From Cercospora beticola (lineage: Eukaryota; Ascomycota; Dothideomycetes; Mycosphaerellales; Mycosphaerellaceae), in NCBI RefSeq assembly GCF_033473495.1, contig NC_088936.1, forward strand, positions 4,650,001-4,714,000: a DNA stretch of 64,000 nt, in the 5' to 3' direction. The notes beneath the pieces were generated by a model that worked only from the letters and a program-made list of their open reading frames with translations, had not been told where the DNA came from and ran no database searches. A program made the translations under genes and the position numbers. How positions within the stretch are numbered: position 1 is the first letter of the stretch; each line of letters starts with the position of its first letter. Below, piece by piece: positions 24,875-53,496 of the stretch.

Positions 24875-25703
24875 TGAGGTGTAGGGGTGGCGTTTGGAAG
24901 GAGTTTTGGCAGCATCAGGCGTGCATTGCGAGGCCTAGGTGCACCAAGCACTAAATTGACAGCTATTGAATTGGGAGCCAAGGATGAGACGCACACTTTG
25001 CTGCAACCAGTGCCAATCTGATCAGATTAGTACATCCAATTTAGTCAAAACTTGGATGCTGTTTTGCCGTTGTGGAGTAGAAGGAATGGGCACTCATAGT
25101 ACTGTACCTTTTCTAGACTCCATCGAGTCGTTACCACACTCGGCAGACGGTACAGCGACGGTATCCTAATGTTGGCGGAACGAGATATGGAGCCATCACC
25201 GCGACGACAGCAGCAATTGGCCTGATCAACACAGCAACTTGGGACGACCCTATTTCGGTCTAATATCAGAGACAATGTAGCATAAACAGGCTCCGCGGAG
25301 GGACAAGAAGACGCGACAATGTACGGGCTACTCACACAAGCACGTCTGGAGTCGCTAAGTTCAACACACGTGAAAATTGCCGTATTTGGCGACGACAGAC
25401 TACCGACTACGAGCTGGTAGCTTCTGCTCCCTGATGGGAGTGCGGGGCGACGAGGACTAGGCCCTGCGCATATCAACTCATCTTCACATTCAAAGACGAG
25501 GCCCGCTCTTCACCTGAATGTTTTGGGTCTCCACTTGCGTGCATTAGCGTGGGTCCGTGCATCATGGGCGGCACAAAAGGGCACCTCTGTTTGCCTTCCA
25601 AACCTTTCCACTCTCCTACCAACAACAACATCAGCAACTCGAACAAGGTAGCGCGCCGCGCCACAGTACGTCTCAAAGCCATGCGAATGCTGACAACACT
25701 TAG
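24875..25703. other. Left margin of the accessory island
   Basis: Non-coding. The first copies of the island's dispersed GAC-AGG-CCT motif appear near its right end (around 25457 and 25497), and GGGTCCGTGC at 25551-25560 matches a word upstream of other island genes. A leader intron ending TTAG immediately before the ATG at 25704 is likely (donor at 25647 or 25666). Confidence 0.5.
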
Positions 25704-26615
25704 ATGAGCGGTCGTAACTCCAGCCAGCCCGTTCCCCCAGACGCGGCATCCCCCAATGGAGTCGCCATGAACGGCCGCGACAGCAACGACGATAGCGGTC
25801 TTCAGACCAACAACAATCCGCACTCTCTTTCTGAGGTGGAGGTCAATCTTGCGCACAGCCTTGCCCAAGAACTAAATCCCAATCTCCCGCTTGCCACCAC
25901 TCCACCATACGACCCTAACCAGGGCTTTGTCTCGGACCATTACATGCCAGGCACTCAGCAGAGCACCAGCACTCAGTTCTACACTGAGAACCGTCCCGAG
26001 CCACCGCATGACCAGGTGCGGGGCTTCGTACAGGGGCAATACGGGCAGGAGGGAAGTCACAACTTCGACGGCGAGCACCAGTCGAAGCATCAGGACGAGG
26101 GCTACACCGGACCTAACAACTCGTCTGGCTTCCAGCAGGCCCTCGGCCACTTGGGCGTGTACGGCGCAGCTTCTTTGCGCGACTACTCGAACGGAGCCGG
26201 CACGACAAGCACTGACGCGATGGACGCTGGAAACGGAGGCTTCGAAGAACCCGATGAATTCCAAATTGTAAGACCAGACATACGGCCTGGTCCAATACCT
26301 GACATACTGACTGAGCTACAGGCCCCGGTGGATGAGGGTGACGATACGAGACGTCAAGAGGCAGAAGCCCGCGAATCCCTGGTTCATTTCGCCAATCTTC
26401 AGACGGAGACCGCACGTCTCAAGAACGAGACCCAGGGGCTACAGGCCGAGCGCCATGCCCTGCGCGTCCAGGCGACGTGCATCAAGAATCTGGCAATGCT
26501 GCAGAAGACCCTGGGTGATGATGTCAAGGGCAGCATGAGTGGCTTGCGCAAGGCGCTGGCGGGCATTCACGAGGTCAAAGACATGCTCACCAAGGTGGGT
26601 GCAAGAGAGCTCTAA
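25704..26615 (+). CDS. Island gene A: hypothetical protein with C-terminal coiled coil
   Basis: Start at ATG 25704, directly after a probable leader-intron acceptor (ACACTTAG). Unspliced it is 303 residues. A 54-bp segment, 26268-26321, has donor GTAAGA, branch CTGAC and acceptor CTACAG; its removal keeps the frame and joins FQI to APVDEGDD, so the mature protein is probably 285 residues. The N-terminal two thirds are Gln/Asn/Gly/Ser-rich and disordered. The last ~90 residues form a coiled coil (LQTETARLKNETQGLQAERH) followed by a helical SMSGLRKALAGIHEVKDMLT. No family recognised. The intron itself carries a copy of the island motif (ACGGCCTGGTCC). The gene sits alone at the left end of the island with GGTCCGTGC ~145 bp upstream. 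Confidence 0.65.
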   Translation: MSGRNSSQPVPPDAASPNGVAMNGRDSNDDSGLQTNNNPHSLSEVEVNLAHSLAQELNPNLPLATTPPYDPNQGFVSDHYMPGTQQSTSTQFYTENRPEPPHDQVRGFVQGQYGQEGSHNFDGEHQSKHQDEGYTGPNNSSGFQQALGHLGVYGAASLRDYSNGAGTTSTDAMDAGNGGFEEPDEFQIVRPDIRPGPIPDILTELQAPVDEGDDTRRQEAEARESLVHFANLQTETARLKNETQGLQAERHALRVQATCIKNLAMLQKTLGDDVKGSMSGLRKALAGIHEVKDMLTKVGAREL

Positions 26616-26729
26616 GCAACCACGGCTCATGCCGAGAACGTTACGAGCCAATGAGGCCCCATGCCTACAGTTTGTCTACAGATGCGCTGATGCGCAGGAC
26701 AGGTACATGATCGCGCCTATGAAATTGAA

Positions 26730-27377
26730 ATGAAGCGTCATACAGAATCCCGTCATACTAGTTCGTTACCCCGGTGTCTGACTACCTTCACCTCACTGAT
26801 ACCATGCTTAGGCCCTAGTGTCCCTCTGAAATATGGCCTTCGACGAGGCAAGCCACGAGTAATGTACAACGTCGAAGAGCTTGCCAGTGAGTCGAGTGAC
26901 ATAAGCGATTCCAACGGAGACCATGATGAAGGCTTCGACTCGAGCGGAGATGAGGCACGAGGGCGCCTCGATTATGAGCAGCCGCGTGTCACTGACGACG
27001 AGTCTGGGCACATGGACATGGGTCTGGTGGTGGTGAAGAAAGACAAGACCTCGCATGAAGCCAGTACCGATGAGTCGGCAGAGAGCAGCCTCGATGACGA
27101 AGTACAAGACTTGATCGACGAGAAGGAAGAGTTGCGACGGATCAAGAAGCTTCGCCGTTGCTCTACTGATGCCTATGCCAAAGGGAAGAATGCTGATCGA
27201 AGAGTCAGCCGGGAGTACCTCGTGCACTACAAGGACGACGAGGACTTTGTCGTTCCTGACGACATGGTAGACTACAGGACGAGTAGCTCGTCTTCGGAGG
27301 ATGCTGAAGCCAGCGAAGATGTTGACGATGACGAGGAAGGTGGCATGGGTGACTACGATGTCATGGATGAGGAGTAA
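26730..27377 (+). CDS. Island gene B: acidic hypothetical protein
   Basis: Open frame of 215 codons from ATG 26730; an alternative start is ATG 26862, inside GKPRVMYNVEEL. A probable acceptor (CCATGCTTAG at about 26811) and an upstream donor-like GTACAT near 26703 suggest that the first ~27 codons are intronic and that the real N terminus lies elsewhere, perhaps in an exon I cannot place. The secure part is very acidic (SSDISDSNGDHDEGFDSSGD, LDDEVQDLIDEKEELRR) with one basic patch (RRIKKLRRC) and the sequence VSREYLVHYKDDEDFVVPDD. It ends in a DDDEEGG-type tail. Composition recalls nuclear or chromatin-associated acidic proteins, but no domain is recognised. Confidence 0.5.
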   Translation: MKRHTESRHTSSLPRCLTTFTSLIPCLGPSVPLKYGLRRGKPRVMYNVEELASESSDISDSNGDHDEGFDSSGDEARGRLDYEQPRVTDDESGHMDMGLVVVKKDKTSHEASTDESAESSLDDEVQDLIDEKEELRRIKKLRRCSTDAYAKGKNADRRVSREYLVHYKDDEDFVVPDDMVDYRTSSSSSEDAEASEDVDDDEEGGMGDYDVMDEE

Positions 27378-27665
27378 AGTCACGAAGACAAGGGCCTGGT
27401 GTGCATGCGCATGGGCAGGACGGAAATTGACATCGTCTTGAGAACGCCACGGCTCGAGGGCCAGAGATCAGGGCCTGTGCATATGGTCAGTGCCAGATGG
27501 TCGAAGAAACAGCTGGGCCCCACTTGAGTGAATCCACACCAAATAAGGTTTAGCGGGCCGTGCGTATTGCCCCACAAACAAGAACAAACATTTCTCCAGC
27601 GTCAAACCACTTTCATTCCTTTCCATTGCATCTACCAACACAACACACAACACACCGCAAGCACT
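27378..27665. promoter_or_regulatory. Promoter of island gene C with shared words
   Basis: Contains GGGCCGTGCG at 27555-27564 directly followed by TTGCCCCACA at 27567-27576. Both words resemble elements upstream of other island genes (GGTCCGTGC; GCCGCCCCACA). A CA-rich leader follows (ACACAACACACAACACACC). Confidence 0.45.
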
Positions 27666-29273
27666 ATGGCGGCGAACTGGGATCCGAAGGAGCTTGTGCG
27701 CACAGACAACCCACCAAATGTGCCCGCAAATGAAGAACAAGCTTTTGTAGCCCGGCTGATGACTGGTGACTTGAGCGCCTACGAAGAGCTAATGGAAGAC
27801 CTCCACGATGACGAGGCCATGGTCACTATCAGGAGTAACGGCAAGGAACGACACCGAGTCTGGGTCGGAACCATGCCAGTCGAGGACGTAGACAATGACG
27901 GCAACATCATCAAGTATACTGACAAGATGTATTTGGACTATGGAGGAGCTGGTGGTACGGATACTGGCGCCGACTGGCAGGCCAAAATATGGTACGGCAC
28001 ACGCAAGATCAAGCACTCGAAAGCAAGCTCGAGCGCTCAGATCGACCTGGGCATGCCTCTGAAGTGGCACGACGACAGGCTGTCAGGTGTTCACTTTGAC
28101 AAGCAGCTCCTAGCCCTAGGTATCACTGACAAACCACAGCGGGAGAAGATATGGAAGAGGGTCCTGCTTCGTACGTGGCGAGCGTATCATCCGCATGTGA
28201 AGATGGTGAAGAAGCCCAAGAAAAAGGACCAAGGCCTGGTCTCCAAACACACGACGACGATAACCGGCAAACAGTCTCGCAATGATGACCAGGCCCCAGG
28301 TCAGCCGGACGATGACCAGACAGTCGAGGACACCATCTGCTCCGAGTGGGGCGTCGACTCCGTCGAAGCGTTGTGGGAGCTGTTCAACCATCAGCCTCAG
28401 GCATTCGTGAATTTCATCGACAAGGACGAGGGCCTGGCCAACGCTGTGGCACAGGGCGCCGTCGACAGTCTCAGCGGGGGCGACTTTGCGCCTATGACCC
28501 AAAAGGCCCTGGTCAAAGCTGCCATCGCGACAATTGAGCAGAACTTGGCCCAGGTCTCGCTGTCTGCGACCTACAGCGAGTGGCTGAATCGTGCGAGCAC
28601 TGGAGCGAAGGGACGAGTCACGAGTGGTACGAAGCCCTCGTTGCAAGAGCGAGCCCTGATGAAACAAGAGCAGTCCAAGGACGAAGAGAAGCGCCTGCGT
28701 CGGGAGGAGAAGCAGCAGAAGAAGCTTCGCAAGGAGGAGAAGAAGCTTCGTAAGGAGGAGAAGAAGCGCCGCAAGGAGGGAAAGCAGCGCCGCAAGGAGG
28801 AGAAGCAGCGCCGCAAGGAGGAAGAGCAGGCAAGCACGGACAATGAGTCGCAGCCCAGTGACGACCGTGACGAGGCATTGGAGGACAAAGACGAGCGACT
28901 TTCGCGCTCACAGAGGAAGCACGCACGCCACCAGGCCTCGTCTTCCGACCAGGACGGGGCTCCCCGCCGCAAGAAGGGAAAGTCTTCGCGTAGTAAATCT
29001 CGGGCAGCCGACGACGAGGATGAGGCCGAGGCTGAGGTGTCTACACAGAAGAAGCTCACCAATCGCAAGCATCACCGCCAGACTCCGCCGAAGGAACCAG
29101 CATACGAAGACGAGGACGAGGATGAGGATGAGGACGAGGATGAGGATGAGGACGAGGACGAAGATCAGGGCCAAGTGTCTTCGTACGAGGAGAGTCGCAC
29201 GACTGAGCAGACGACCACGGCTTTTGAGGAGGACCTTGAGGACCTGGACGACTTTGTGGTAGCTGCTGCATGA
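27666..29273 (+). CDS. Island gene C: hypothetical protein with charged repeats
   Basis: 535 residues from ATG 27666, which lies after a CA-rich leader and starts MAANWDPKELVR. The N-terminal ~330 residues look globular: a region with VTIRSNGKERHRVWVGTMPV, YLDYGGAGGTDTGADWQAKIWYG and KRVLLRTWRAYHPHV, then a helical part (SVEALWELFNHQPQAFVNFI). The C-terminal third is extreme low complexity. First come tandem pentad-like blocks of Lys/Arg/Glu (RREEK, RKEEKK) at about residues 340-385, then a run of Asp-Glu dipeptides near residue 485, then an acidic tail. Several copies of the island word encode DQGLV, DEGLA and QKALV here. No family recognised; nuclear location is inferred from the charge pattern. 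Confidence 0.65.
   Translation: MAANWDPKELVRTDNPPNVPANEEQAFVARLMTGDLSAYEELMEDLHDDEAMVTIRSNGKERHRVWVGTMPVEDVDNDGNIIKYTDKMYLDYGGAGGTDTGADWQAKIWYGTRKIKHSKASSSAQIDLGMPLKWHDDRLSGVHFDKQLLALGITDKPQREKIWKRVLLRTWRAYHPHVKMVKKPKKKDQGLVSKHTTTITGKQSRNDDQAPGQPDDDQTVEDTICSEWGVDSVEALWELFNHQPQAFVNFIDKDEGLANAVAQGAVDSLSGGDFAPMTQKALVKAAIATIEQNLAQVSLSATYSEWLNRASTGAKGRVTSGTKPSLQERALMKQEQSKDEEKRLRREEKQQKKLRKEEKKLRKEEKKRRKEGKQRRKEEKQRRKEEEQASTDNESQPSDDRDEALEDKDERLSRSQRKHARHQASSSDQDGAPRRKKGKSSRSKSRAADDEDEAEAEVSTQKKLTNRKHHRQTPPKEPAYEDEDEDEDEDEDEDEDEDEDQGQVSSYEESRTTEQTTTAFEEDLEDLDDFVVAAA
28685..28830 (+). repeat. 15-bp tandem repeats encoding R/K-R/K-E-E-K
   Basis: A GA-rich unit (AAGGAGGAGAAGAAG with CGCCGC variants) recurs about eight times in frame, producing a highly charged helix in island gene C. 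A separate GAGGATGAGGACGAG simple repeat at 29108-29163 gives a polyacidic run in the same protein. Confidence 0.8.
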
Positions 29274-29880
29274 GTCGCGGCACAAGGGCTTTGTACCCAC
29301 TAGGCATGAGGGGTGATGGATGAGCAACAACATGAGAGATGAGAGACATGAAACGAGGGACGAGGCCTTGTAGCTAGCCTCTTGGGTTATCTAGCGTGGG
29401 CGCTGGACTTGACTCGATCATTGCATTGAGGTTTTGCTTGATGTTCTCGACCGAGAGTCGCGATGAAGCTTGGTTTGTGGGTCATAGACGAGGCTTGATA
29501 CGGCCTCCAGGCACCTGGTGCTTGGTCTATTCTGCCAACAGCGCCATAGTTGACCATAGCCAAACCCGGAAACGTTGCATTACGTAGGTCTTGTCTTCCC
29601 ATGCATCGTGCAAGGCCCTGGACCTAGGCCTGGTCCCCGTCTTCCAGCCAGCACTGAGCTTCGCATCTGAGTCTGGCCATCAGTGACTCGTGGAGTGATG
29701 CGTCCATATTTTGACACACGCACAGGACCCAGTCTTCGCAGTTCGCTCGATTGTGCCCGGTCTGTGGGGCTCGATAAGTGGGTCGTGACTTCCCTCTTGC
29801 TGTTACTTACGTACAGAGACTTTGCTGGCTCTGACGCGACTTGTCTGGCCTTCGCAACTACATCAACCACGTCGCCCGCG
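29274..29880. other. Intergenic with motif copies
   Basis: Contains several island-motif variants (for example CGAGGCCTTG near 29360, GACGAGGCTTG near 29486, GACCTAGGCCTGGTCC at 29621-29636). An upstream ATG at 29698 is in frame with gene D and would add 61 residues, but its sequence is not conserved-looking. Confidence 0.5.
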
Positions 29881-32800
29881 ATGGCGCCTACCACCGGCCA
29901 ACCCAAAGCATACGCCAGCAAGAACGCGGGTGCGCTGGCTTCTACCACTATGCAAATGGACTTTGGCGCGTGGATGCAAGCCGATACGACAGCAAGCTCG
30001 GCAAAGATCCGCGATCTACTTGCCAACGCAAAGCGCGATGTCCTGGAGGCTGAGAAGACCAAGGCACGCGAAGAGATCCGGCGACAGACCGCTGAGATAA
30101 AGCAGAGGCTCCGGGACAAGCCCTGGCTCGCGACTAATGCTACAGTCCTAGATGAGCTCGCAGCAGTTGCAAGTGAAGCACAAGTGGAGCATGTCAATAG
30201 GCTCACTACTACCTGGACTAAGCTGGGGGACGAGGTGCAGAGCGCCCAGAAGCGACACGAAGTTCGGAAATCAGAAATGGACGACGAGCTCACCGACAAA
30301 CGCCGAAGCCTGGTCGCGACACAGCAGGAGATAGCTCGTCTCTCGGGTGACCGTGATCACGCAAAACAGGCTCTTGCAGACAAGTTGAAGGAGAAGGAGG
30401 CCCTCGTCGAGATGGTCGCAGCGGAGCAGCTTCAATTGCAGAAGGCCAAGACCGAGCACGAGGGCCTCGTCAAAACCCGGCAGAGCGAAGAAAGACGTGC
30501 CCACGACCTTGCTGCCCACATTAAGGAACAGGAGTCGAAAGTCTCAGCTGTGCAGGCCTCGTTGGTTCAAGCTGAGGAGGAGAGCAAGTCTCAGCTCCAA
30601 GCTCGAGAGCAAGAGCTTGCCGGCCTTGCCGCGAACAAGCAGTCATTGACAAGTACGATTCAGGAGAAAGAAGAAGTTGTGCAGAAGCTGAAGCACGAGC
30701 ACGAGGGCCTAGTCTCGCAGCACAAGAAAGCACTCAGCGCGTTGAAGGACGAGCAGCAGGGCATCGTGGCACAACATGAGCAGGAGATGAGAAAGCGGAA
30801 TGTTCAGCACAATGAGCTCGTCTCGAACAGAAAAAAAGAGTTTGATGACCTGCAGCAGCAGCATGAAGCTCAAGTTGAGCGTCACCGAAAACGAATAAAC
30901 CATCTCAATAACGAACACGACAAGCTTATCGCACAGCACAAGGAAGAGGCGACCAAGCTGAGACGTGAACACGAGGCCCTCGTCCAACAGCAGCAGGGAC
31001 AGACAACTGAGTTGAAGCAAAAGCACGATGCCCTTGTTGAGGAGTGTCGAGCGGAACGAGCACGACAGGAGGCCCTGGAGGAGCGCAAGGGTCGCCTCGA
31101 GCGACTGGTTACCAGAGTGGAAGAACAAGGTCACGACCTGCGGATGTCAAGCGGGCGTCTACAAACGACCAAGCGTGCTGCGATGTTCCTCGTGGCGATA
31201 ATGATGCTCAAGATACGTGCCTTGCTCCGCGGTCACGATCTCGCTCACAGGAGGCAGAGAGGCCGACTCCACGCCAGCGTCTCCATCAGCCAAGTCCTGC
31301 ATGCGCGCGTCTCCTCACTCGAGGGCGACAAGCAGGCCTTGCTCAACGATACAGCTACTCTAAGATCACAGCTGCTGGATTGGAAAGATGGGGTTCGACT
31401 ACTGCAGTTGCAGCTTGGTCGGGCAAAAGGCATGCTCAAGGCCAAGGACGCGTCAATTCGATCGCTCAACCGTCGTCTGATAGAGCAGGACGAGGCCTCC
31501 GTCTCCATGGTCGCAGCACTCTCGGTCGTGTTGCAGGCCTCATACGTGAGCCTCGGTCAGCACAGGAAGCTTGTGCCCATTCAGAGGCAGCGAATCACTC
31601 GACTGCATAATGCGAATACGTCCCAGCACCAATCGTCCGCGAATAGAGAGTCAGTCCTCGTCCAGCAGATTCAGGGCTTGCAACAGCAGGTGGCACAGGC
31701 TGTCAAGGAGTCGACCTGGCGTACTCGCAAGGGACGCATTCAAGCGAGAAAGGTTCGCGCCCTTCGTACGAAAGCTCACCAGCTCCAGGGAGACAACCAA
31801 GCCCTGCGCTCGAACATGCATGAGAGGAGCCTTGAATTACAGTCACAACTTGACAAAGCAAAAGACCAAGTCCTGGTTGCTCGAAAGGAGGCCTCAATTG
31901 CTGAAGTCCGCCTTTTCCAGGCAGACGAAGATCTAGCCAACATGGCGAGCGAATGCCACGAGCTGGATGATGAGATTGACAAAGCAAAACATCAAGTCCT
32001 GATTGCCGAGCAGGAGGCCCTGGTCGCTGAAGTGTGCCATCTCCGGGCAGACGAGGATCTAGCTAACATCGCGAGCGAATGTCACGAGCTACACGATGAG
32101 GTGGAGGAGCTCAACCACGCCCAGTCCTCGTTGCTTTCCCGACAGAGCGAGCTTGAAGATGAATTATCGAGCGTGGTATTGTGTCTCATTGATCTTACCA
32201 AGCAAGCCCGGGGCCTCATCTCCGAGAAGAACGTCCAGATCGCAACGTGGAGCGATGAGGCAGGCCGATGGAAGGAAGCGTATGTCTTGATCAAAGCTGA
32301 TTGGGTGGAGGATCGGGAGTACATAGAGGATCAAGACCTCGTCATCGAAGAACTTGAGGAGCAGGTTGCTGAGTTGGCAACTGAGCACAAAGACGAGCTT
32401 ACAAGTGCAGGCATCCTGGCCGAAGCCCAAGAGAACCATGTCCACAAGCTGCGCGCCGATGTGAGGAACGCCAATGCCACCGTCCAGCTCACGACACAGC
32501 AAACCCAAGCTCTGGGCCTACTAGTTGCAGAGCAAGGCATAGCACTTCATCTCCGGCAGCAGGCCATTGACCAGGCGGCCGAGGTGAACAAAGGTTTGGT
32601 GCGCTCGGGCAAACGTGTCACCTACCAGGGCCGGCACTGTCGATCGACTGCTGTAGGAATGGAGGAAGTGATCGGCACTGTCCTCAAGGAGGTACTACAG
32701 AACATGACGAGCATGAAGACGAAGTACGAGCGTCGCCTCCACCAAGCATCTCAAAGAGCTACTGCCAAGGACAAGACATACCAAGACCTGCTGGCTCGTG

Positions 32801-33246
32801 CACGCATAGAATTTGTACAGCAACAGAGGATGTACGAGGACAAGATCTACAAATTGATGCGACGAGGCCCTGCTCCTATCGCCCAGACAGCAGTCAAGCG
32901 GCTGTTGCTGGCGGTCGCGCAACAGCTGGAGATGGAGCACGAAGAAAAGACTAGGCTCCATGTGGGAGAGTTCGAGCAGGAATTGGGCAAGCTTCAGCAG
33001 ACGATCACGGAATCCAAGCAGGAAGTAACCTCATACAAAGGCCTCGTACTCAAGTTCAAGAAGGCGAACGAAGAAAAATCGGCCATGATGAGGCACCTGG
33101 CGGACGAGGTTCCGCGTTCTATTGGGCAGTACCAGCATGAGGTGAGATCGCTACAACGGCTAGTGCTGCTGGCCAAACAGCAATCTCAGGAGCAGAAGGA
33201 AAAGTTGAAAGAGTTGATGGAGGTCATGTCGCGTGTCATGGGTTGA
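29881..33246 (+). CDS. Island gene D: 1121-aa coiled-coil protein
   Basis: Start at ATG 29881 (CCCGCGATGGCG); ATG 29698 is an in-frame alternative. From residue ~70 to the end almost everything is predicted helix with heptad-like spacing, as in SMC-hinge-less or myosin-tail-type proteins, but no head or nucleotide-binding domain is visible. Between residues ~170 and 400 there is a loose ~17-residue repeat built on H-E-x-L-V-x-Q-H (EHEGLVKTRQ, EHEGLVSQHK, REHEALVQQQ, KHDALVEECR), in which the LV core is encoded by the island motif. Bases 31849-31977 and 31978-32106 are a tandem 43-codon duplication. A short hydrophobic segment (AAMFLVAIMMLKIRALL, residue ~440) interrupts the coil. A structural or scaffolding role is inferred; the family is unknown. 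Confidence 0.7.
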   Translation: MAPTTGQPKAYASKNAGALASTTMQMDFGAWMQADTTASSAKIRDLLANAKRDVLEAEKTKAREEIRRQTAEIKQRLRDKPWLATNATVLDELAAVASEAQVEHVNRLTTTWTKLGDEVQSAQKRHEVRKSEMDDELTDKRRSLVATQQEIARLSGDRDHAKQALADKLKEKEALVEMVAAEQLQLQKAKTEHEGLVKTRQSEERRAHDLAAHIKEQESKVSAVQASLVQAEEESKSQLQAREQELAGLAANKQSLTSTIQEKEEVVQKLKHEHEGLVSQHKKALSALKDEQQGIVAQHEQEMRKRNVQHNELVSNRKKEFDDLQQQHEAQVERHRKRINHLNNEHDKLIAQHKEEATKLRREHEALVQQQQGQTTELKQKHDALVEECRAERARQEALEERKGRLERLVTRVEEQGHDLRMSSGRLQTTKRAAMFLVAIMMLKIRALLRGHDLAHRRQRGRLHASVSISQVLHARVSSLEGDKQALLNDTATLRSQLLDWKDGVRLLQLQLGRAKGMLKAKDASIRSLNRRLIEQDEASVSMVAALSVVLQASYVSLGQHRKLVPIQRQRITRLHNANTSQHQSSANRESVLVQQIQGLQQQVAQAVKESTWRTRKGRIQARKVRALRTKAHQLQGDNQALRSNMHERSLELQSQLDKAKDQVLVARKEASIAEVRLFQADEDLANMASECHELDDEIDKAKHQVLIAEQEALVAEVCHLRADEDLANIASECHELHDEVEELNHAQSSLLSRQSELEDELSSVVLCLIDLTKQARGLISEKNVQIATWSDEAGRWKEAYVLIKADWVEDREYIEDQDLVIEELEEQVAELATEHKDELTSAGILAEAQENHVHKLRADVRNANATVQLTTQQTQALGLLVAEQGIALHLRQQAIDQAAEVNKGLVRSGKRVTYQGRHCRSTAVGMEEVIGTVLKEVLQNMTSMKTKYERRLHQASQRATAKDKTYQDLLARARIEFVQQQRMYEDKIYKLMRRGPAPIAQTAVKRLLLAVAQQLEMEHEEKTRLHVGEFEQELGKLQQTITESKQEVTSYKGLVLKFKKANEEKSAMMRHLADEVPRSIGQYQHEVRSLQRLVLLAKQQSQEQKEKLKELMEVMSRVMG
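31849..32106 (+). repeat. Tandem 129-bp duplication inside gene D
   Basis: Two adjacent 43-codon units share the frame DKAKxQVLxAxxEA, then AEV, then ADEDLANxASECHEL. The unit length is a multiple of three, so the duplication lengthened the coil without breaking it. Confidence 0.8.
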
Positions 33247-33762: not shown

Positions 33763-34734
33763 CTATCTCAGACACAAGCCCTTCCTGTTCGTACATGTTT
33801 GGCATGCAGCTTTCGATCTTTCCGTAGTCCATTTGAATGAGGTCTGTCCACTCAAGTGCTTGAGGCGGAGGCACTTGTCGTAGCAGCCTTTGTCTCGCCA
33901 ATCAGGCTTCTCCGCATCGAGCTTCGCAACTAGCTCGCGTACCTGGAATACGATGGTCGCCGGGAGAGAGGATTGGGGTACCACGACGAGGGCTCCGTTC
34001 TCAAGGACCGAGCCCTGGACCAGAGGCTGCGATGTGGCAGATGTCTCCGATGGTGCAGCCTGTGACCGAGACGAAGCGGGCGTAGAGGGGTTGGTAGGGC
34101 GAGGCCGCGACAGAGTGGAGCGATGGGTCTCGAGGCCTCGACGTGAGTGGGTTTTACGAAGCGTGGAGCTCGATGTAGCAATTGACTCCGTAGGTACAGT
34201 CTGTGGCCGAGACGAAGGTGGGGTGGAGGTGATGGCACGGCGAGTACGAGCCAGGGTGGAGCCATCAGAGTCCAGGGCTTGGGAAGACTGGATCACATGA
34301 GGCATCGGGCTTGATGTATCAGCTGTCTCGTCCGATACAATCTGAGACCAAGACGAAGTTGTTGGAGACGCAACGGCCGGCTGATCACGCGCTGAGGCGA
34401 AGCGCTGTCTCTTTGACGCTGGGTTGGCATCGTCCACATGGTGTAATGCGCTTGATGTGACAGGCGTCTCCGTAGACCGAGCCTGCTGCTCTGTCTCGGT
34501 CTGCGAAGTAGTAGTGGCAGCGCGTGTACTCAGTGAGTCGGAGCGCTTCCTCTTGGAGGCCTTGTTCACTGGCTAGGACGAGTCAGGGCGGAGGCCTCAT
34601 CTCATGTGCGTGACACTTACTTGTAGCATCAGGCGCATGCTTTGGTACATCGCAAGGAAGTCTTCATGATTCTTGACTAAGGCTGCCTCCTCTTCGGCGA
34701 GATTAAAGTTGTCGAGCTGGGTGGCACCTTCCAT
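33763..34734 (-). CDS. Island gene E: Ser/Thr-rich protein with C-terminal Cys cluster
   Basis: Exons 34621-34734 and 33763-34572 flank a 48-bp intron with donor GTAAGT and acceptor TCCTAG; the joined frame gives 307 residues. Exon 1 encodes a short helical start (MEGATQLDNFNLAEEEAALV). Then comes a basic patch (NKASKRKRSDSL, a likely nuclear localisation signal) and ~170 residues of Ser/Thr/Pro/Arg-rich disorder with quasi-repeats of the type TSSWSQ / PSSRPQ / ASSRSQ. The C-terminal ~85 residues look folded (LPATIVFQVRELVAKLDAEK, DWRDKGCYDKCLRLKHL) and end with Cys-X2-Cys-X6-Cys (ACQTCTNRKGLC), a possible zinc site with the preceding CYDKC. The intron holds an island-motif variant (GATGAGGCCTCC). 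Divergent from the SNF2 gene, with 289 bp between start codons. Confidence 0.65.
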
Positions 34735-35023
34735 CAGGGGTTCAGGACGAGGGCCTCGTCTCGGAAGACGATGACCGGGCTGCGTTGACGGAGCCCAGAG
34801 CCTTTCGAGAAGCTGTGGAATATCTGAGAAGTCTGAGCATAGGTACCGAGGGAGTGCTTGATAAGGGCGTGGTGCTGGTGTTGGTGTTAGAGAGTTGAGT
34901 CAATGTTGATGTGGAGCCAAAGTCAGCGGTCCGTGCGCGGGACCCACTTTCGCATGTGTTAAACTTCGATCATCCACTTTCGCTTCTTCACCCACCTCGA
35001 CACAACCTAACAACACATCGAAA
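34735..35023. promoter_or_regulatory. Bidirectional promoter between island genes E and F
   Basis: Contains a complete island palindrome at 34746-34760 just upstream of gene E's ATG and GGTCCGTGCGCGGGACC at 34928-34944, whose ends GGTCC/GGACC form an inverted repeat. The latter lies ~85 bp upstream of the SNF2 gene's ATG. Confidence 0.5.
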
Positions 35024-45400: not shown

Positions 45401-47830
45401 TAGCTCCCCTACTTACTATAACGAGTCTTTTCTAGTTTATTAAGAATCTTTAGACTCTCTATAGTTGCTTTCCTACTAGAAAGATCCTATCTATGCTTAA
45501 AAGAGACTTATAGTAGTACTAAGAAGCAAAAGGCTAAGAATCTAGCTTTTCTTTTTATAATAGCTTCTCTACTTACTAGAACGGGTCTTTCTAAGTTAAT
45601 CTAGAGTCTTTAGGTTCTATATAATTACTTTTATACTAGAAAGATTTTTAATAACTAAAGAAGAGGCTTTCTATATTTATAGAGAGCTTTTTTACTCTAA
45701 GTTTTCCTACTATTCTATATTAGTCTCTCTACTTAGTATATCGAATCTTTCTATATTTCTTTAGAGTATTTAGGCTCTAGATAGCTACTCTTATACTAGA
45801 AAGACTCTTAATAGTATTAGGAGAGGCTTTTAATAGTTATAGAGCGATAAAATCTCTTAGTTTTTATTTCTCTTATACTACTTACTAGAGTAGGTCTTTT
45901 AAAGATTATTTAGAGTCTTATAGATCGATCTAACTACGTACGTACTAAAAAGTTCTTAATATTCTTAGTAGAGGCTCTAAAGAGTAAAAGAGTAAAAAGC
46001 TTTTAATTCTCTTACTATTTATATTAGCTTCTCTACTTACTAAAACGAGTCTTTCTTAATTTATTTAGAGTCTTTAGCTACTAAATAGCTACTTAAATAC
46101 TAGAAAGATCCTTAATATATAGAGAAGAGGCTTATCCTTATTATAGAGAGAGAAAAAAAGCTAAAACTCTAGCTTTTTCTTTAATATTAGCGTCTCTACT
46201 TATTAGAACGAGTCTTATTAAGTTAAATTAGAGTCTCTAGGCTCTATATAGCTATTAAACTACTAGAAAGATTCTTAATACTCTAAGAAGAGGCTTATAA
46301 TAGTACTTAAGAGTAAGAAAGCTAGAAATCTAGCCTATTTATTATTATAGCTTTCTTACCTGCTAGAACAGATCTTTCTTATTTATTTTAGAGTCTTAGA
46401 TCTCTAAAGAGCTACTTCTATACTAAAGAGATTCTTTATATATAAAGAAGAGGCTTATAATAGATATATAGAGAGAAGAAAGCTAAAATTTAAGCCTTTC
46501 CTTTTTTATATTAGCTTTTCTACTTCTTAGAACAGGTCTTTTTCAATTAACTTAGAGTCTTAAGGCTCTATATAGCTTCTTTTATCTTAAAAAGATCCTT
46601 AGTATCTAAAGGAGAGGCTTATAATAGCTATAGGGAGCTAAATACTTAGAGTTTCTAGATATTTCTATATTAGATCTTTTACTTAGTAAAACGAGTCTTT
46701 CTAAATGTTTTAAGAGTCTTTAGCTACTAGATTTAGTTTTATACTAGAAAGATTCTTAATATATCGAGAAGAGGCTTATAATAGCTATAGGGAGCTAAAT
46801 ACTTAAATTTTCTAGATATTTCTATATTAGATCTTTTACTTAATAAAACGAGTTTTTCTAAATGTTTTTAGAGTCTTTAGCTACTATATAGCTAGGTTCA
46901 TACGAGAAAGATTCTTAATATATAGAGAAGAGGCTTATAATAGTTATATAGAAAGGAAAAAGCTAAAATTCTAGTATTTCCTTTTATATTAGCTTCTCTA
47001 CTTAATAGAACGAGTCTTTTCTAGTTAGGTTAGAGTCTCTAGACTCTCTATAGCTACTTTCGTACTAGAAAGATTCTTAATACTATAAAATAAGCTACTT
47101 ATAGAGCTAAACTCTCTAAGATTTAAAATTTATTAAATATTCGTCTCTTTACTAACTAGAAAGAGTCTTTCTTAGTCTACTTATAATCTTTAGACTTTAT
47201 ATAGCTAGTCTACTACTACTAGAAAGACTCTAAATATCTTTAGAGGAAGCTTTTAATAGTAATAGAGTAAAAAGCTTAAAGTTTAAGCCTTCTTATTATA
47301 CTAGCTTCTATACTTACTAGAACGGGTCTTTTAAGATTTTTATAGAATCTTTAGACTGCTTATAAGTACTTTAGTACTAGAAAGACACTAATTATCTAAA
47401 GGAAAGATAATAGATAGTCGTAGTATAGAAATCTACTAAGAATTTTCCCTATTAGTCTCTTACTCTATTAGAAAGAGTCTTTTAGAGTAAACATAATATC
47501 TCTAGAGTCTAGTAAATAGAACGCTTAATATATCGGGTCTATATTAGCTTAAGAAAGGCTTATAGTAGCTAAAAGAAAGAAAAAAGTAGAAATTTTAGCT
47601 TCCTCTACTATATTACTTTATATACTTAGATAAGTCTTTCTAGATCTAATTAGAATAGGATTTTCTAGTTTCTTTAAGAGTCTTTATACTCTATAGAAGT
47701 CCTTATATTATATAGAGACCTAGAACAAGCTTATAAGAGGCTTATAATAATAGAGAAATTATTCTTTTTATAAGAAATTTACTAAGTCTTTCTTAGCTGT
47801 TTTAGACTCTTTAGCTTCTCATAAAAGCAG
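42480..47830. repeat. AT-rich ~158-bp tandem satellite array, RIP-like
   Basis: A landmark of the type AACG(A/G)GTCTTTCTA recurs with near-constant spacing from 42578 to 47629, about 33 units of 147-178 bp, mean ~158. Each unit carries, in order: the landmark; a dyad GAGTCTTTAGACTC (arms GAGTCT/AGACTC); GCTA-rich sequence; TACTAGAAAGA; GAAGAGGCTTATAATAG; and a purine-rich stretch before the next unit. CA and TG dinucleotides are nearly absent while TA is abundant, the signature of saturating CpA-to-TpA mutation on both strands. Units have diverged, except for some close neighbours (46614 and 46771). No open reading frame. The edges are sharp against the genes on both sides. Candidate centromeric or heterochromatic DNA; not proven. 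Confidence 0.85.
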
Positions 47831-48140
47831 TCTGGCTTTAGCCTTTTACTAGGGAAGAGATAGACCTAGGTATCGCCAGAAAAAAGCTCGTTTACTCGTT
47901 ACTATTTTGTATAGAGACTACGAGGCTATACCTACGTAGCAGACCTTGCTTGCTTTGCAGACCTTTTCTCTGCAGCAGGTCCTACCTATGTCTCGCTGTC
48001 TGCCTAGCAGAGGACTAGGGCTTTGTCTTACTTCTCTCGACCAAGCCTCGTCTTATCGCAAGACCTTGCGCTCACGATGACCAGGCCTCGTTCTACGTGC
48101 AAACCGCATCTGTCCGCGAACAACAGACCAGGCCCTCATC
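47831..48140. other. Right edge of the array and trailer of gene I
   Basis: Composition changes from AT-rich to GC-normal within about 100 bp near 47830. Three island-motif copies lie in 48050-48140 (CGACCAAGCCTCGTC, GACCAGGCCTCGTT, GACCAGGCCCTCATC). Confidence 0.55.
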
Positions 48141-50506
48141 TCAGTACTCAGGCTTGGTCTCCGAGCCCCTCGCAGCCTTCTCCTTCTTTGCCTCCTTAGC
48201 CTCCCTCTCAGCCTCTCCCTCTGCAACAAGTTCTTCGAATCTCTCCATACTATCGAAGTTCGGGCCATGCTCCTCCTCCAACGTCTCGACCTCGTCTTCG
48301 TGCACAATTTCGCGGGGGCAGCCAAATGTGTGTGCGTCGCAGAGGGCGTTAATGTCCTTGGTGCTCCAAGGCTTGCCGTTTGGTCGCGGGTTGATATCGT
48401 CGAGCACGCGGGCCATGACCCAAACGAGCTTGCGGGGGACGGCGTCCATGGTCATCTTGCCTCGCAGATAATCCATCATCTCCCACACACGCACCGGCAC
48501 GTCCTCCCAGTCGTTAGTCCATTCGAGATGGACCCGGTGCAGGTCTTGAGTGCATATGCGGACATCGAAGCCTTGTGGATTGCCATGAGCGGTTCTGGGG
48601 CCCAGGAAGTACGGGTCCTCGCTGACCTTGTACTTCAATGCCCGACTCATATCATTCCACTCGTCGCCGAACTGCGCCTTGAGGGCAGACACTTCGGCCC
48701 GCTGCAAGAAACCGTCTGGAGTGCCGAAGCAGTGGGTTCTGCTCATGTGCACCATAGCGAGCGGGGACCAATGCTTTCTGTCAGGACGAGGGTTGACAGT
48801 GTCCAGGATATCGGCCATCAGGCGCGTAGACTTAGCGGCGAGGACGAGATGCTGTTCGCGTTTCTTCTTCATCTGGTCCCGGAGGTAGTTGAAGATTTCC
48901 CACAGGCGCTTGTGGTCGACGGGATTGACGGAGTTGAAGACGGCGGCTGCATCTTGGTCGCAAGTCTCCAGTGTCATGGGCAGTGTGTTACCGTAGGGGC
49001 TGATGCTGGAAGTCGGTTCCTGGTCCATGTCCTCGTCGCTGTCCTCGTCGCTGCTTTCGTCTTCGTCGCCGGCTTCGTTCTCGCTGGCCTCATGCTCGCT
49101 TTCTTCGACGCTGCTGTCACTGTCGTAGCTATCGTCGCTGTTATTGCCGGCCTCGTCCTCGCTGCTCTGTTCGTTGCTGTCGTCGCCATCTTCGTCATCA
49201 GCATCAATCTCCTCGTCACTGCCCATCAATTCTTGGTCCTCGTCATCTGAAGCCTGGTCTGACGACTCTTCATCGCCGACCTGGCCCTGGTCTTCATCTT
49301 CTGCGGCCTGGTCTGACTGGCTCTCCATGTCCACGTCGTCACCCCCTGGGGCCTCGTCTGGCAGGCCCATGAACTCGGCACTAGGAAAACGCTCCTTCAT
49401 GGCATCAACGCGGGCTTCGTCCTTCTCCTGCTGATCGAGTTCGTCTCTGATATCTGGCCTGTTGATGAAGGCATCGATGATGAAGCGCACGTCAGAGACC
49501 AGGCGCGGGACACGCTCGACGACGTTCAGGAGCCTCAACTACATTCAGTCAGTGTGGGTTACAATATGACTAGGCCTCATGTCTGCACTTACCCGCGAGT
49601 CTGCAACGACAGTCGCAATGACAGCACTCCACTGGTCTTCGTACCGGGCTGCGCACATCATGCTTGGTTCATTCTTTCGAACGGATCGAAGAATTAGTTG
49701 CTTGATGCTCTGGTCGCGCGCGTCGTACGGGAGGGCCGTCCAGCCCGGGATGCGTAGGGCCGTCTGGACGTTGTTCTCGATGATGTCCTTTCGCGCAAGC
49801 CTCGTCTCGACGTAGAGCTTCGATAGATCCCGGCTCAAGCCGACGAGGGCTTCGTGGCAGGCCTTGATAAGCACGATCAGGACGTTGCCTGCATCCTCTG
49901 CAGCGTCATGGTCGTCTTGCCACGTTTCGTGGAAGGAATTGTAAATGTGCTGGTACGTGTCAGCGATGAGGGACGAGGCCTGGTCCCTGGTCTATTGTGA
50001 CTTACTGCAACGGTGTGTGGTAACTCAAAGCTGTCGATGTCGAGGGCCTGGAGGTGGTCATAGGTAGTGCTGAGGTGAGAAATGTAGGCTTTGGCTGCAG
50101 CGCCCACCTCGGCTGTAGCGGAGTTGAGGATGCGTGGAAGGAGGTCGTCAAATTCTCGACCAGTCGTGTGTGGAGTGATCTCCTGGATCAGGGCCTTCCA
50201 ATGGTAGCGGTCGGGGTTACGCTGCGAAGGATGGTCTTGGACGTCAACGTAGAGGACTCCATCACGTGAGGATCCCAGTCGCTTGAGAATCTTGAGGTAA
50301 ACGTCCGAGGCTTCATTGTTCAAGTCTTTGAGCTCCACGGCAGCAAGCTTGAGCTTGTTGCGGAGAAACACCCACTTCTCGCTGAGATTCAGATTCTCGT
50401 TAGCGAGATTTGCGGGCGGGTCTGGCCGTGTGAGTCTGTGGAAGTTCTCAGGGGTGAGATCGTTACCCAGAGGGCCGTACGGCTCGTGAGGCGGCTCCTG
50501 GGACAT
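48141..50506 (-). CDS. Island gene I: acidic protein with a duplicated C-terminal domain
   Basis: Exons 50006-50506, 49593-49949 and 48141-49538, introns of 56 and 54 bp with GTAAGT donors and CCAG/GTAG acceptors; all joins hold frame, 751 residues. Residues 1-330 are helical (WVFLRNKLKLAAVELKDLNN; ADRN-type linkers; KACHEALVGLSRDLSKLYVE). Residues ~345-480 are an almost pure acidic/Ser stretch (DEEIDADDEDGDDSNE). The C-terminal ~250 residues contain two diverged copies of a ~75-residue module: copy 1 LWEIFNYLRDQMK...LDTVNPRPDRKHWSP...HCFGTPDGF, copy 2 VWEMMDYLRGKMT...LDDINPRPNGKPWST...HTFGCPREI. Trp, LRxxM, NPRPxxKxW and xFGxP are shared. No family recognised. Both introns contain an island-motif copy. 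Its promoter mirrors that of gene J. Confidence 0.72.
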
Positions 50507-50574
50507 CGTGGATGCGGTACTGCGGTGGTGTTGGTATGTAAGAAGGTGAAGAAGAAAAGAAGAAAGCGAGACCA

Positions 50575-51041: not shown

Positions 51042-51153
51042 CCCTTTATCTTTCAACCTACAACTCTTTCCAACTTACGTACCTTTTCCCCCGTCACCCA
51101 TTCCCTATCACCGCCTACTGCTGCGCTTTCCACGCTCTACCAGCGCGTCCAAA

Positions 51154-53024
51154 ATGGCCGACCAAAACTTGACCTCGTATGTCCCGCGCAGTATACGTTT
51201 CCGGCAGATCTACTGACTCCTTTCTAGTGGTCAACTAGCACAGCAGGAGTACGATCAGGCGCTCTAGGACAATAACAAGGCTTTGTCAGATCTCCAGGAT
51301 CAGCGCCAGAAAACCAACGATGAGATGATCGCGTTCCAAGCTATCGCTGGAGACGACATGACCGTGCTGCACGAGGAGCTGGCCCTGCTTCAAGATGGGC
51401 TAGGATCGGTATAACCATTCCCGCAACTGACCAGGGCCTGGTCCTCATTACTGACTATGTCCAGCTCCTCAGCGCTCGGCGCGCCTACGATGCCCTCGAG
51501 GACCGCATCCCTGTCCTCGCAAACGTAGTCCAAGTGGGCGCCAAAGACCTAGAGGCTCAGCTTCGCCGCGTGGGAAAGTCCTTCGAGGGTAGGTCTAAGT
51601 CCCCAGAGGTGTTAGGTGCGATTCAGGCCGCAGAGACAGGCCTCAAGATTGCCGCAGACGCTATCAAGCAGTGCGCAAGCCTACCTACCATGAGAGGTAA
51701 AGATGAGGCCCTAGACTCAAAGCGCCAAACCGCGTCGTCTGGTCGTAAAGACAGTATAGGTGTCGATGGCTCCATCGAAGAGCGGAAGTCCAAGACCAAG
51801 ACCTGGCTTCGCCGTGCAGCCGACGAGAGTGAGGACGAGGACGAGGATAAGGACCAGGGCCCGGTCGAGGAGAGTGACAAGGCTAGGGCCTCCTCGCGCA
51901 AGAAGACTAAGGTGCAGAATGATTCCGATGAAGACGAGGAGCAGGTCTCGAAGCATGCGAAGAAGGCAGCCCCACCGAAGACCACGACCAAGACCAAGCC
52001 TGCGTCGAAAGAGGTGAAAGCTAAGGCCCCGAAGCCTAGAAAGAGCAAGAAGTCCACTGCTGCCACCAACAAGGGTCAATCCGATGCAGACGAAGAAGAC
52101 GTCCACGAGCGTCTGAAGAAGCTCGAGCAAGGAAAAGCGACGACCAAGCCTAAGTCTACCTCGAAAGAGGCCAAGCACGAGGCCCTGAAGACCAAGAAGA
52201 CGAAGAAGAAGCATACGAAGACCAAGACTGAGTCTTCCTCTGAGTCCTCCTCGGAGGCTTCATCCGAGTCATCTTCAGAGTCCTCTGCAGAATCCTCGTC
52301 TGAGTCTGAAGACGAAGAACCCCAGGAGAAGAAGACGAAGCAGAAGTCCAACCCCTCGAAGACCACGACCAAGGCGAAGAACGGAGCCTCAGCCAAGTCC
52401 AAGCACACTGCCCAGCGTCCAGTCTCCGAGTCAAACGAAGAGGTTGAGAGTCCTGCAGTCAAGCAGATCAAGGTGAAGAAGGAGGCTCTGTCCACGTCCA
52501 AGTCCACTTCCAAGCGCCCAGTTTCCGCATCAGACGAAGAGATTGAGAGTCCTGCAGCCAAGAAGAGCAAGGTGAAGAAGGAGGTCTTGTCCAAGTCGGC
52601 CGCTAAGCGTTCCGCCTCAGTGGCAGACGAAGAGAGTGACCAGCCTCCAGCCAAGAAGCAGAAGGCCAAGTCCAAGAAACCTGCAGAGCCGATCGCCACC
52701 CCCGAACCCTTCGCTCGCCGCCGTATGCAGGGCGCAGAGGATCAAGACTCTCGCACCAAGTCGACCAAGACCAAGCCCTCGTCCAAAGTCAAGCAGGAGG
52801 AGGTGGTGGTGTTGAGCTCCAATAACCCATCCTCCGAGCCTGAGGACGAAGTAGTCATCACCGAGACGCCTCCAAGATCTCGTGGAGATCAGAGAAACAG
52901 AGGTAGTCGTAGCGTCCACGGCGTGGGTCATGGCAGCGGAAGAACACCGGTGAACACCCCACCACCAAGCTCTGCCGTCAAGAACAAGGGCACGCCCAGC
53001 AGCAAGAGTAAGGGTGGTCGCTGA
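51154..53024 (+). pseudogene. Island gene J: Lys/Ser-rich protein with an in-frame TAG
   Basis: Exons 51154-51176, 51228-51408 and 51465-53024 join in one frame across introns with donors GTATGT and GTATAA and acceptors TTTCTAG and GTCCAG. Codon 21 is TAG (51265-51267), directly before DNNKALSDLQDQRQKTNDEM, which is clearly coding. CAG-to-TAG is the simplest origin and matches a CpA-to-TpA change. No alternative splice I tried removes it and keeps the frame. If real, the gene is broken, or starts at the later Met in NDEMIAF. The intact reading would be ~587 residues: a coiled coil of ~170, then Lys-rich chromatin-like disorder with Ser/Glu runs (SSSESSSEASSE) and three ~32-residue repeats containing KRPVSASDEEIESPAAKKSK. 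Promoter element shared with gene I. Confidence 0.6.
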
Positions 53025-53496
53025 GTACCGTTGCATTGAACCGGTCATCTTCTGGCCAACGCATTTCACCAGGCCCTGGTAACTGGCCCAAGTCCGGCTT
53101 CTCGCTGAGACGTGCCACAATCAGGCCTCATCTGTTGGAAAGGCATTGCTGCTGCTTTGCAGTAGCGCAAGACCAACGACATACCACGACGACTAAGGCC
53201 AGACATCAGGCAGTAGTCATAGCATGAGCTTCAGATATGAGATAAAATGAGAGCATGATTCGCTCTAACCTGCTTTCAACATTAGTCAAGACTGGATGAG
53301 TACCCGAGGCCTTGAGCTACGTGCTTTGCCGAGAGCGATCATTATGCTCAAGACTCTTTCTCTTGTGCTATCCCTATTCTAGTGTGTATCCGCTACACAG
53401 TGACTAACACAGTTCATATCTCCTATAGCCGTTAATATTAATCTGCCGAGAGACAATCTTGGAGAGCCGTATGTTGCAGCACAGTCGTAGTCCGAA
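53025..53496. other. Right margin of the accessory island
   Basis: Last motif copies occur here (CCAGGCCCTGG near 53073, ATCAGGCCTCATC near 53113, CGAGGCCTTG near 53309). No gene seen; the convergent stop of the glucosyltransferase gene is at 53497. Confidence 0.5.

Follow-up and report, generated by a model that had tools for sequence, protein, structure and literature searches.

A near-palindromic DNA word nearly confined to one 28-kb block of the Cercospora beticola genome

As described in PMC5735166, the Arabidopsis element VANDAL21 carries a 9-bp word (YAGTATTAY) that is non-palindromic, mainly noncoding, kept in one orientation and often arranged in tandem repeats, and the specificity of the anti-silencing protein VANC21 is ascribed to the density of this word. 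A block of a Cercospora beticola chromosome resembles VANDAL21, as presented there, in that a short word is dense in one kind of element, introns and spacers included, with sporadic single copies elsewhere (PMC5735166). In contrast to VANDAL21, the word of the block is a 14–15-bp dyad that lies mostly outside tandem arrays and also occurs in coding DNA. It is dense in this block and rare elsewhere apart from one small cluster on contig C7, and it is neither repeated in tandem in one orientation nor mainly noncoding. A Pfam scan of open reading frames (ORFs) of the block detected no MULE-type or other transposase family, and we recognized no VANC-like protein in the block. HIP1, according to PMC4390886, is likewise an overrepresented palindrome, but it measures 8 bp, is frequent throughout cyanobacterial genomes and contains internal sequences that are recognized by methyltransferases. 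Unlike HIP1, the word of the block occurs in a eukaryote and almost only at one 28-kb locus; outside this locus it is at control level, not overrepresented.

Introner-like elements, as described for Dothideomycetes, also give the introns of related fungi a common sequence, but they are whole introns that have multiplied. The introns of the block share only the 14–15-bp word, which also occurs outside introns, and by eye they are alike only in this word and the splice signals. Partition sites (parS) are few in number and nearly identical. The parS/ParB system, as it is described, offers a parallel in palindromic sites that are read by a dimer and may nucleate a nucleoprotein body; unlike parS, the block has dozens of degenerate sites running through genes, and the scanned ORFs contain no ParB-type or ParA ATPase Pfam domain. 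Finally, Starships are large blocks of accessory genes found in ascomycetes, with a DUF3435 (PF11917) captain at one end. Our locus fits the first part of this description, and no such captain was found in the window, that is, the whole stretch of 64,000 nucleotides analyzed (C2:4650001-4714000), with at least 46 matches elsewhere in the genome. A comparison of the two edges of the block, whose positions are approximate, for terminal repeats or a target-site duplication gave a single inverted match of 10 bp. Among the PMC articles listed by our searches we saw no comparable fungal system, in agreement with the initial annotation of this DNA, which knew of no described system of this design.

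The word is the near-palindrome GACSAGG-(N)-CCTSGTC. In the 36-Mb genome (36,074,111 bases on 10 contigs) it occurs at about chance level except in a block at about 25.45–53.08 kb of the window, the satellite within this block excluded. Site scans place the block at 25449..53081, from a first pair of sites at 25449-25470 to a last clear site at 53067-53081. The initial annotation had reported many recurrences between 25.5 and 53.3 kb, and the counts bear this out: 51 of the 52 distinct sites in the window (15-mer or 14-mer form, ≤2 mismatches) fall in the block. The 15-mer GACSAGGNCCTSGTC has four exact matches in the window, all within 25457-53320, where we also find 21 of 21 matches with at most one mismatch (none in the flanks) and 39 of 40 with at most two. 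The 14-mer GACSAGGCCTSGTC matches once exactly, 7 times with ≤1 and 13 times with ≤2 mismatches, always in the block. Half-sites (GACSAGG/CCTSGTC) number 102 in the block versus 15 in the rest of the window, and the top places in block-versus-flank rankings of 7- to 10-mers are mostly fragments of the word.

Genome-wide, the block holds 4 of the 5 exact 15-mers (reversed control: 2), 21 of the 77 matches with ≤1 mismatch (reversed control: 60; both totals are complete, and positions on contig C4 are those among the matches listed), 8 of the 13 matches to the 13-mer core ACSAGGSCCTSGT (control: 7) and 3 of the 7 matches to the relaxed 14-mer GACSARGCYTSGTC (control: 4). The comparison of densities proposed with the initial annotation finds the genome near control level, the flanks almost free of sites and the block enriched. 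Since the word is dense in the block and near chance level in the rest of the genome, this distribution suggests that a protein may use it for recognizing the 28-kb stretch. We relied on consensus counts with controls, as a position weight matrix trained on the block gives densities biased to the block; the value of 2.9 hits per 10 kb refers to 15 of 20 loci with GC > 0.5, some loci having been picked because they hold a match. A candidate second cluster on contig C5, with two core matches 12 kb apart, was rejected, as the density there equals background.

Intergenic DNA of the block (4044 nt, excluding 38355-39060, where the gene model is unclear) contains 14 sites with ≤2 mismatches, about 100-fold more than shuffled sequence (mean 0.14, maximum 2 of 300). 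Introns (312 nt) contain three such sites versus a shuffle mean of 0.007. Both exact palindromic forms that had been reported are present: GACGAGGGCCTCGTC at 34746..34760 is intergenic, immediately upstream of the start codon of gene g5, and GACCAGGGCCTGGTC at 51429..51443 lies within the predicted intron 51409-51464. An exact 14-mer (49972..49985) stands in the predicted intron 49950-50005 of g9, and the 14-mer GACGAGGCTTCGTC (37660..37673) in the last intron (37634-37691) of an SNF2 gene, an intron backed by the gene model of C. berteroae. Among all candidates of an intron scan, a recount that is unselected and includes nested rows, 7 of 16 in the block carry the word versus 0 of 21 in the flanks. 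Among introns chosen by gene model, hand-picked from these candidates with one (25646-25703) added by eye, 6 of 8 in the block have a site with ≤3 mismatches, versus 0 of 10 in the flanks and a mono-shuffle expectation for the eight of 0.2 (maximum 2 of 500). The word had been claimed for seven of eight block introns and for no intron of the flanking genes; its presence in the former and absence from the latter stand, with a lower fraction in sets of introns that may differ from the original one. The word had also been placed on both sides of a satellite and in every sequence class. This holds for exons, introns and spacers, but the satellite itself (42450..47900), an AT-rich diverged tandem repeat with ~160-bp units and RIP-like composition, is word-free and has no excess of fossil words. 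The satellite sequence was not found elsewhere in the genome.

The arms of the word have a defined geometry. Inverted half-site pairs with spacers of 0 and 1 bp occur 10 and 29 times in the block and never in the flanks; other offsets in the block give 0–5 pairs, apart from a minor maximum at spacer 7 (9 pairs). Noncoding block DNA alone, with the same segment excluded as above, has 9 and 9 pairs at spacers 0 and 1. Such a dyad would be a dimer-read, strand-blind signal, and thus unlike an RNA or peptide signal. Site spacing is roughly random (CV 0.85–0.95), and no nucleosome or helical phasing of the sites was seen in the block. The sites are degenerate, only nine being without mismatch or with R/Y variants only, and variants at the S, R/Y and N positions are intermixed among copies.

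We consider it probable that the word is a selected binding site for a putative dimeric DNA-binding protein devoted essentially to the block. A recognition site had been proposed before, and it is the best inference from the dyad with spacers 0 or 1, its strand-blindness and its near-confinement to one locus, although we recognized no sequence-specific DNA-binding domain in the scanned block ORFs. From the pattern of sites, we infer both that a protein binds the word and that selection maintains it. In double-stranded DNA, each site would pair the 7-bp arm GACSARG with its inverted counterpart CYTSGTC across a spacer of 0 or 1 bp. Selection on the locus would have retained such sites, or given rise to them, by the dozen at all places where the sequence can bear them, in introns, spacers, UTRs and coding DNA.

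A further small cluster keeps the word from being wholly restricted to one block, and it involves gene g3 (27666..29273, + strand, 535 aa). In the spacer before this gene (27378..27665), positions 27387 and 27466 hold sites that resemble the word. The gene has a 24–27% identical paralog on contig C7. Upstream of this paralog, four sites with ≤3 mismatches lie within 140 bp, one of them the 14-mer with one mismatch. Shuffles of 600 bp average 0.14 sites (maximum 2 of 200), and 200-bp windows in 22 other fetched loci and the flanks contain at most two, those in the block up to five. Alignment of the DNA upstream of the two genes extends over no more than 25 bp at 80% (E 0.087), which indicates that the word has outlasted the divergence of the sequence around it. 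This cluster, found post hoc during a late check, raised the weight of a dedicated binding site, of co-regulation and of the self-maintaining block considered below, and lowered that of a mutational by-product, a donor relic, an insertion element or a protein motif. It is possible, but tentative, that the g3 family either supplies the reader, which would bind DNA upstream of its own gene, or is a partner under regulation. Closer relatives of g3 (45–48%) occur in C. beticola (P0123) and C. kikuchii (P0124). The peptide D-[EQ]-[AG]-L-V, which the word can encode, occurs 3 and 2 times in them versus shuffle means of 0.40 and 0.31; with P values of about 0.01 and 0.04, these excesses are too slight to build on. 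A fold prediction for the g3 N-terminus from three sequences (pLDDT 45.4) was too poor for use.

The words might instead be promoter elements through which a transcription factor co-regulates the block genes and the C7 paralog, as in a pathway. The genes are indeed clustered, several sites, such as those at 34746 and 29621, stand shortly before a start codon, and the C7 cluster sits upstream of a gene. However, the word is also found in introns, 3′ spacers and exons, and the scanned block ORFs include no fungal transcription-factor domain; we regard pathway-type regulation as unlikely.

Similarly unlikely, in our view, is a mutational epiphenomenon, in which an enzyme acting on the block pulls its sequence toward the word without benefit, as proposed for some HIP sequences by methyltransferase and mismatch repair. 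A neutral origin of overrepresented palindromes has been argued for some cyanobacterial HIPs (PMC4390886), and degenerate sites in an almost random spread would fit. Such an enzyme would have to read a 14–15-bp dyad with two spacers and be limited to one locus, but no methyltransferase or repair domain appears in the scanned ORFs, and the idea sits poorly with a distinct cluster in front of the C7 paralog.

The gene content bears on whether the block is a relic of a donor, be it an organism or an element, with a genome rich in the word throughout. SNF2 protein apart, no scanned ORF matches a Pfam family at E ≤ 0.01. Upstream of g3 are two orphan ORFs, g1 (25704..26615, +; 303 aa, disordered-looking with a C-terminal coiled-coil-like stretch) and the acidic g2 (26862..27377, +; 171 aa). 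The coiled-coil-like orphan g4 (29698..33246, +; 1182 aa) is followed by g5 (33763..34734, −; 307 aa, two exons with intron 34573-34620, Cys-rich C-terminus). Gene g6 (35024..37745, +) codes for an 887-aa SNF2-type ATPase/helicase with PF00176 (SNF2_N, 1.3e-36), PF00271 (Helicase_C, 2.6e-9) and the motif DEMGLGKT; its relatives of solved structure, by sequence, include a snf2/rad54-family helicase, CHD4 and ISW1. Among the matches listed, its sole close relative is C. berteroae CBER1_04258 (97% identity), which with the scarcity of Pfam families would suit a donor; the remaining listed matches are generic SNF2 proteins, about 25–35% identical over part of the length. Gene g8 (39292..42330, −; 1012 aa) is 99% identical to C. 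berteroae CBER1_04257, and a fold prediction for its C-terminus from three sequences (pLDDT 38.7) was too poor for use. Beyond the satellite lie g9 (48141..50506, −; 751 aa, three exons), with the word in both introns (49539-49592, 49950-50005), and g10 (51154..53024, +), Lys/Ser-rich with acidic stretches, whose three-exon model has one in-frame TAG at 51265-51267. In all three protein searches, scoring was limited to about 8000 candidates with the most sequence words in common, and the absence of a relative therefore means little. A donor origin is nevertheless very unlikely: the block genes have ordinary fungal introns, g3-related proteins occur in C. beticola and C. kikuchii, g8 has fragments elsewhere in this genome and a weak relative in Phyllosticta, and a scan of IMG/VR yielded no relative of the SNF2 protein. 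The g8-fragment loci on C3 and C7 have 0–1 sites (≤2 mismatches) per 10 kb, like other loci (0–2), and the Phyllosticta relative has the word's peptide at background, which shows that the g8 family does not need the word.

The initial annotation had also considered a tiny insertion element; in this reading, or with short templated insertions, the 14–15-bp unit itself would have been copied around the block. A length of 15 preserves the reading frame and copies occur in all sequence classes except the satellite, yet copies >55 bp apart share exact strings of ≤15 bases, with ≤4 beyond the word (strings shared at <55 bp reflect window overlap rather than copying and were disregarded). Local tandem duplications touch 6 of 51 sites, the other 45 lying outside tandem arrays, so that a few copies stem from duplication. 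In g6 and g8, compared with their C. berteroae counterparts, no 5-residue stretch is gained or lost at a word. Together with the mixing of variants and a single prevailing coding phase that codon composition predicts, this leaves the proposal scarcely credible.

In coding DNA, GAC-SAG-GSC-CTS-GTC would be easily translated as D-E/Q-A/G-L-V, as in the exact 15-mers at 35405..35419 (SNF2 gene, DEALV) and 41752..41766 (g8, DQALV). Using the g10 model that still holds an in-frame stop, we count 30 coding sites, versus 1.65 after codon permutation and 14.2 (sd 3.0, maximum 25 of 1000) after synonymous permutation, so protein sequence and codon use explain about half of the coding copies. The frame giving D-[EQ]-[AG]-L-V accounts for 27 of the 30; codon permutation places 1.58 of its 1.65 matches in the same phase, and the preference is as predicted from codon composition. 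Gene g4 has nine sites of the 15-mer (≤2 mismatches), eight in phase 0, and g6 has five coding sites (two overlapping), all in residues 116–308 of 887. The encoded residues of g6 and g8 are kept in C. berteroae at 9 of 10 in-phase sites, in proteins that are 97–99% identical anyway. Codon bias or a protein motif as the whole cause is ruled out by introns, spacers and the synonymous permutation, which upholds the earlier view of a word at the DNA level. That block proteins share the peptide for binding a common partner, with the DNA word as its shadow, would suit the prevailing phase and the 14.2 sites retained under synonymous permutation, but this reading is largely refuted by the introns, sits ill with intergenic copies and a phase that codon permutation also gives, and is the most improbable of all.

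A selected binding site for a dedicated dimeric protein would have consequences for the locus, where exons, introns and spacers together carry about one strict site every 430 bp. Binding may, as a tentative possibility, mark the whole locus together with its other nuclear-looking proteins, including the divergent SNF2-type ATPase, for example by keeping chromatin open beside the RIPped satellite or by gathering the locus into one nucleoprotein body; such locus-wide chromatin marking would resemble what VANC does on VANDAL transposons. It is somewhat unlikely, though conceivable, that the block is self-maintaining, having evolved a private 14–15-bp dyad; its own proteins, a dimeric reader from the g3 family and an SNF2 remodeller dedicated to the block, would use this dyad to hold the block in a distinct chromatin state, or to partition or drive it.

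Eukaryotes rarely offer a natural mark of selection at the level of a locus such as this word, which is nearly confined to one chromosomal block and extends even into its introns and exons. Should a protein encoded in the block read the word, the locus would be a fungal, palindromic and coding-tolerant counterpart of VANC/VANDAL self-recognition. It would then be a compact system for studying how a protein finds one locus via the density of degenerate sites, and a model for how a locus resists adjacent silencing and RIP and for regulatory words in coding DNA. A locus with its own address would represent a self/non-self DNA code in eukaryotic chromatin, written also into coding sequence.

The 15-mer form of the near-palindromic word, GACSAGGNCCTSGTC, has 4 exact copies in the window, a count that rises to 21 when one mismatch is allowed and to 40 when two are. 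The word-rich block at 25457–53320 (27.9 kb, including about 5.5 kb of word-free satellite) contains 4, 21, and 39 of these copies, respectively. The 14-mer form, which lacks the 1-bp spacer, occurs 1, 7, and 13 times at the same thresholds, always in the block. Counted as distinct sites of either form, there are 51 in the block against a single one elsewhere in the window with up to two mismatches, and 111 against 12 with up to three. This outcome confirms the claim of the initial annotation that a near-palindrome recurs between 25.5 and 53.3 kb, and on both sides of the satellite: at matrix score 10 the two sides carry 4.0 and 3.7 sites per kb. A search of the genome (36.07 Mb, 10 contigs; the window lies in contig C2) detected five exact 15-mers, four of them in the block, with two matches to the reversed word as control. 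The core 13-mer was found 13 times (control 7; 8 in the block) and a relaxed 14-mer 7 times (control 4; 3 in the block). With one mismatch allowed, the 15-mer has 77 matches in the genome against 60 for the control, so the 56 copies outside the block represent background. Twenty-two other 10-kb stretches of the genome contain 0–2 sites each, 8 in total, at up to two mismatches. The enrichment is real and almost restricted to this locus.

The word had been assigned to every sequence class, which holds for intergenic, intronic, and coding DNA but fails for the satellite, where a scan found no sites. This AT-rich, diverged array (42450–47900) consists of units of about 160 bp that are about 70% alike, is strongly RIP-like in composition (TA/AT 1.89), and is confined to this locus within the genome. 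Intergenic block DNA (4044 nt) contains 14 sites with up to two mismatches, an excess that survives comparison with dinucleotide shuffles (0.14; maximum 2 of 300). Introns (312 nt) contain 3 such sites against 0.007 in shuffles. These introns are predictions; two in g9 (48141–50506, minus strand) are backed by a clean 751-residue reading of this gene, one in g5 (33763–34734, minus strand) by a clean 307-residue reading, and one in the SNF2 gene g6 (35024–37745, plus strand) by a spliced gene model from C. berteroae. With every candidate intron called by a single rule, a site with up to three mismatches was present in 7 of the 16 block candidates and in 0 of 21 from the flanks; for sets chosen by hand the figures were 6 of 8 and 0 of 10. 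Both the word-free flank introns described earlier and the enrichment in block introns stand; the block set may differ from the one behind the proposed 7 of 8. Nine sites are exact or differ only by R/Y variants, and three of them (37660, 49972, and 51429) lie in predicted introns.

Across nine spliced models totalling 17,232 nt there are 30 15-mer sites with up to two mismatches, distributed 27/1/2 over the three phases. Permutation of codons within genes left on average 1.65 sites (maximum 6 of 1000), and 1.58 of these fell in phase 0, which means that codon composition predicts the preference for this phase. Synonymous permutation, which preserves the proteins, gave 14.2 sites (sd 3.0, maximum 25 of 1000). 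About half of the coding signal thus follows from protein sequence and codon use, which partly qualifies the earlier dismissal of codon bias; a DNA-level excess remains beyond both. Of ten in-phase sites in g6 and g8 (39292–42330, minus strand), nine keep their residues in the C. berteroae proteins, weak evidence for possibly retained sites given that the proteins are 97–99% identical. The three-exon model of g10 (51154–53024, plus strand) contains one in-frame TAG (51265–51267), itself within a near-copy of the word, reflecting either a model error or a broken gene.

Inverted half-sites are paired 10 times at spacer 0 and 29 times at spacer 1 in the block, and never at either spacer in the flanks; noncoding DNA alone provides 9 pairs at spacer 0, 9 at spacer 1, and 6 at spacer 7. 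The lesser peak at spacer 7 (9 pairs in the block) arises in part from overlapping sites; this spacer, as in 37828–37848, has the length of one additional half-site. Since the S positions differ between arms, most copies are near-palindromes. One main rival to the reading as selected binding sites is that the word arose neutrally, an origin that has been argued for some HIPs, highly iterated palindromes of cyanobacteria (PMC4390886). Spacing between sites in the block is near random. No two copies separated by more than 55 bp have an identical string longer than 15 bases in common, and such strings extend at most 4 bases beyond the word; tandem duplications touch 6 of the 51 sites. Tandem repeats also occur inside genes (126 bp in g4, 31850–32090; 99 bp in g10, 52370–52597).

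The block encodes about ten gene models. The g6 product is a divergent SNF2-type ATPase (PF00176 and PF00271), and the other open reading frames scanned match no Pfam family at E ≤ 0.01; several are acidic or lysine-rich. The C. berteroae proteins CBER1_04258 and CBER1_04257 match g6 and g8 at 97% and 99% identity, which places the genome in Cercospora. Beyond this species, the matches listed for g6 are generic SNF2 proteins (about 25–35% over part of the length), those for g8 include one weak relative, in Phyllosticta, and those for g3 (27666–29273, plus strand) are from C. beticola and C. kikuchii (45–48%). Fragments related to g8 (33–54% identity) lie at C3:3928233–3928787, C7:166157–166534, and C3:4107994–4108095; those on contig C3 hold in-frame stops, and the word is at background around the fragments on both contigs. 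The C7 and C3:3928-kb fragments lie tens of kb or less from AT-rich DNA. The Cys-rich C-terminus of g5 (CYDKC...ACQTCTNRKGLC; 33763–33900, minus strand) is possibly metal-binding, and a search with the g5 exon found no second match in this genome. No DUF3435 (PF11917) captain was found in the block; the whole genome has at least 46 matches to this domain, 41 of 46 with in-frame stops.

The single paralog of g3 in the genome (C7:1996376–1997335, 27% identity) is accompanied by a second cluster of the word, found late and after the fact. Four sites with up to three mismatches, including the one-mismatch 14-mer GACCAGGCCTGGTT, occupy 140 bp (C7:1995976–1996114) ending about 235 bp upstream of the start codon; a fifth lies directly past the stop. 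Windows of 200 bp contain at most 2 such sites in the 22 other loci and in the flanks of the block, and up to 5 in the block itself, and 600-bp shuffles at the cluster gave 0.14 sites (maximum 2 of 200). The DNA upstream of g3 also contains sites (27387 and 27466). Between these upstream stretches of g3 and its paralog no alignment exceeds 25 bp at 80%, and the proteins are 24–27% alike. Sites upstream of both genes in DNA that hardly aligns argue that the word was kept beside both members of this family.

The second main rival is plain co-regulation, with the word as a promoter element. The nearest working analogue in the sources consulted is VANC21 on VANDAL21: there, a 9-bp word, dense in the introns and spacers of this element, guides an anti-silencing protein (PMC5735166). 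In contrast to that system, the present word is palindromic, also occupies coding DNA, and forms few tandem arrays, and no transposase family was matched by the block reading frames scanned. The best reading of this strand-blind dyad, which has fixed spacers and is present at nearly a single locus and in every class except the satellite, is a set of probable binding sites for a dimeric protein, sites that locus-level selection may have kept. Any function of such sites is inferred, and the C7 cluster points to the g3 family as candidate reader or target of the word.
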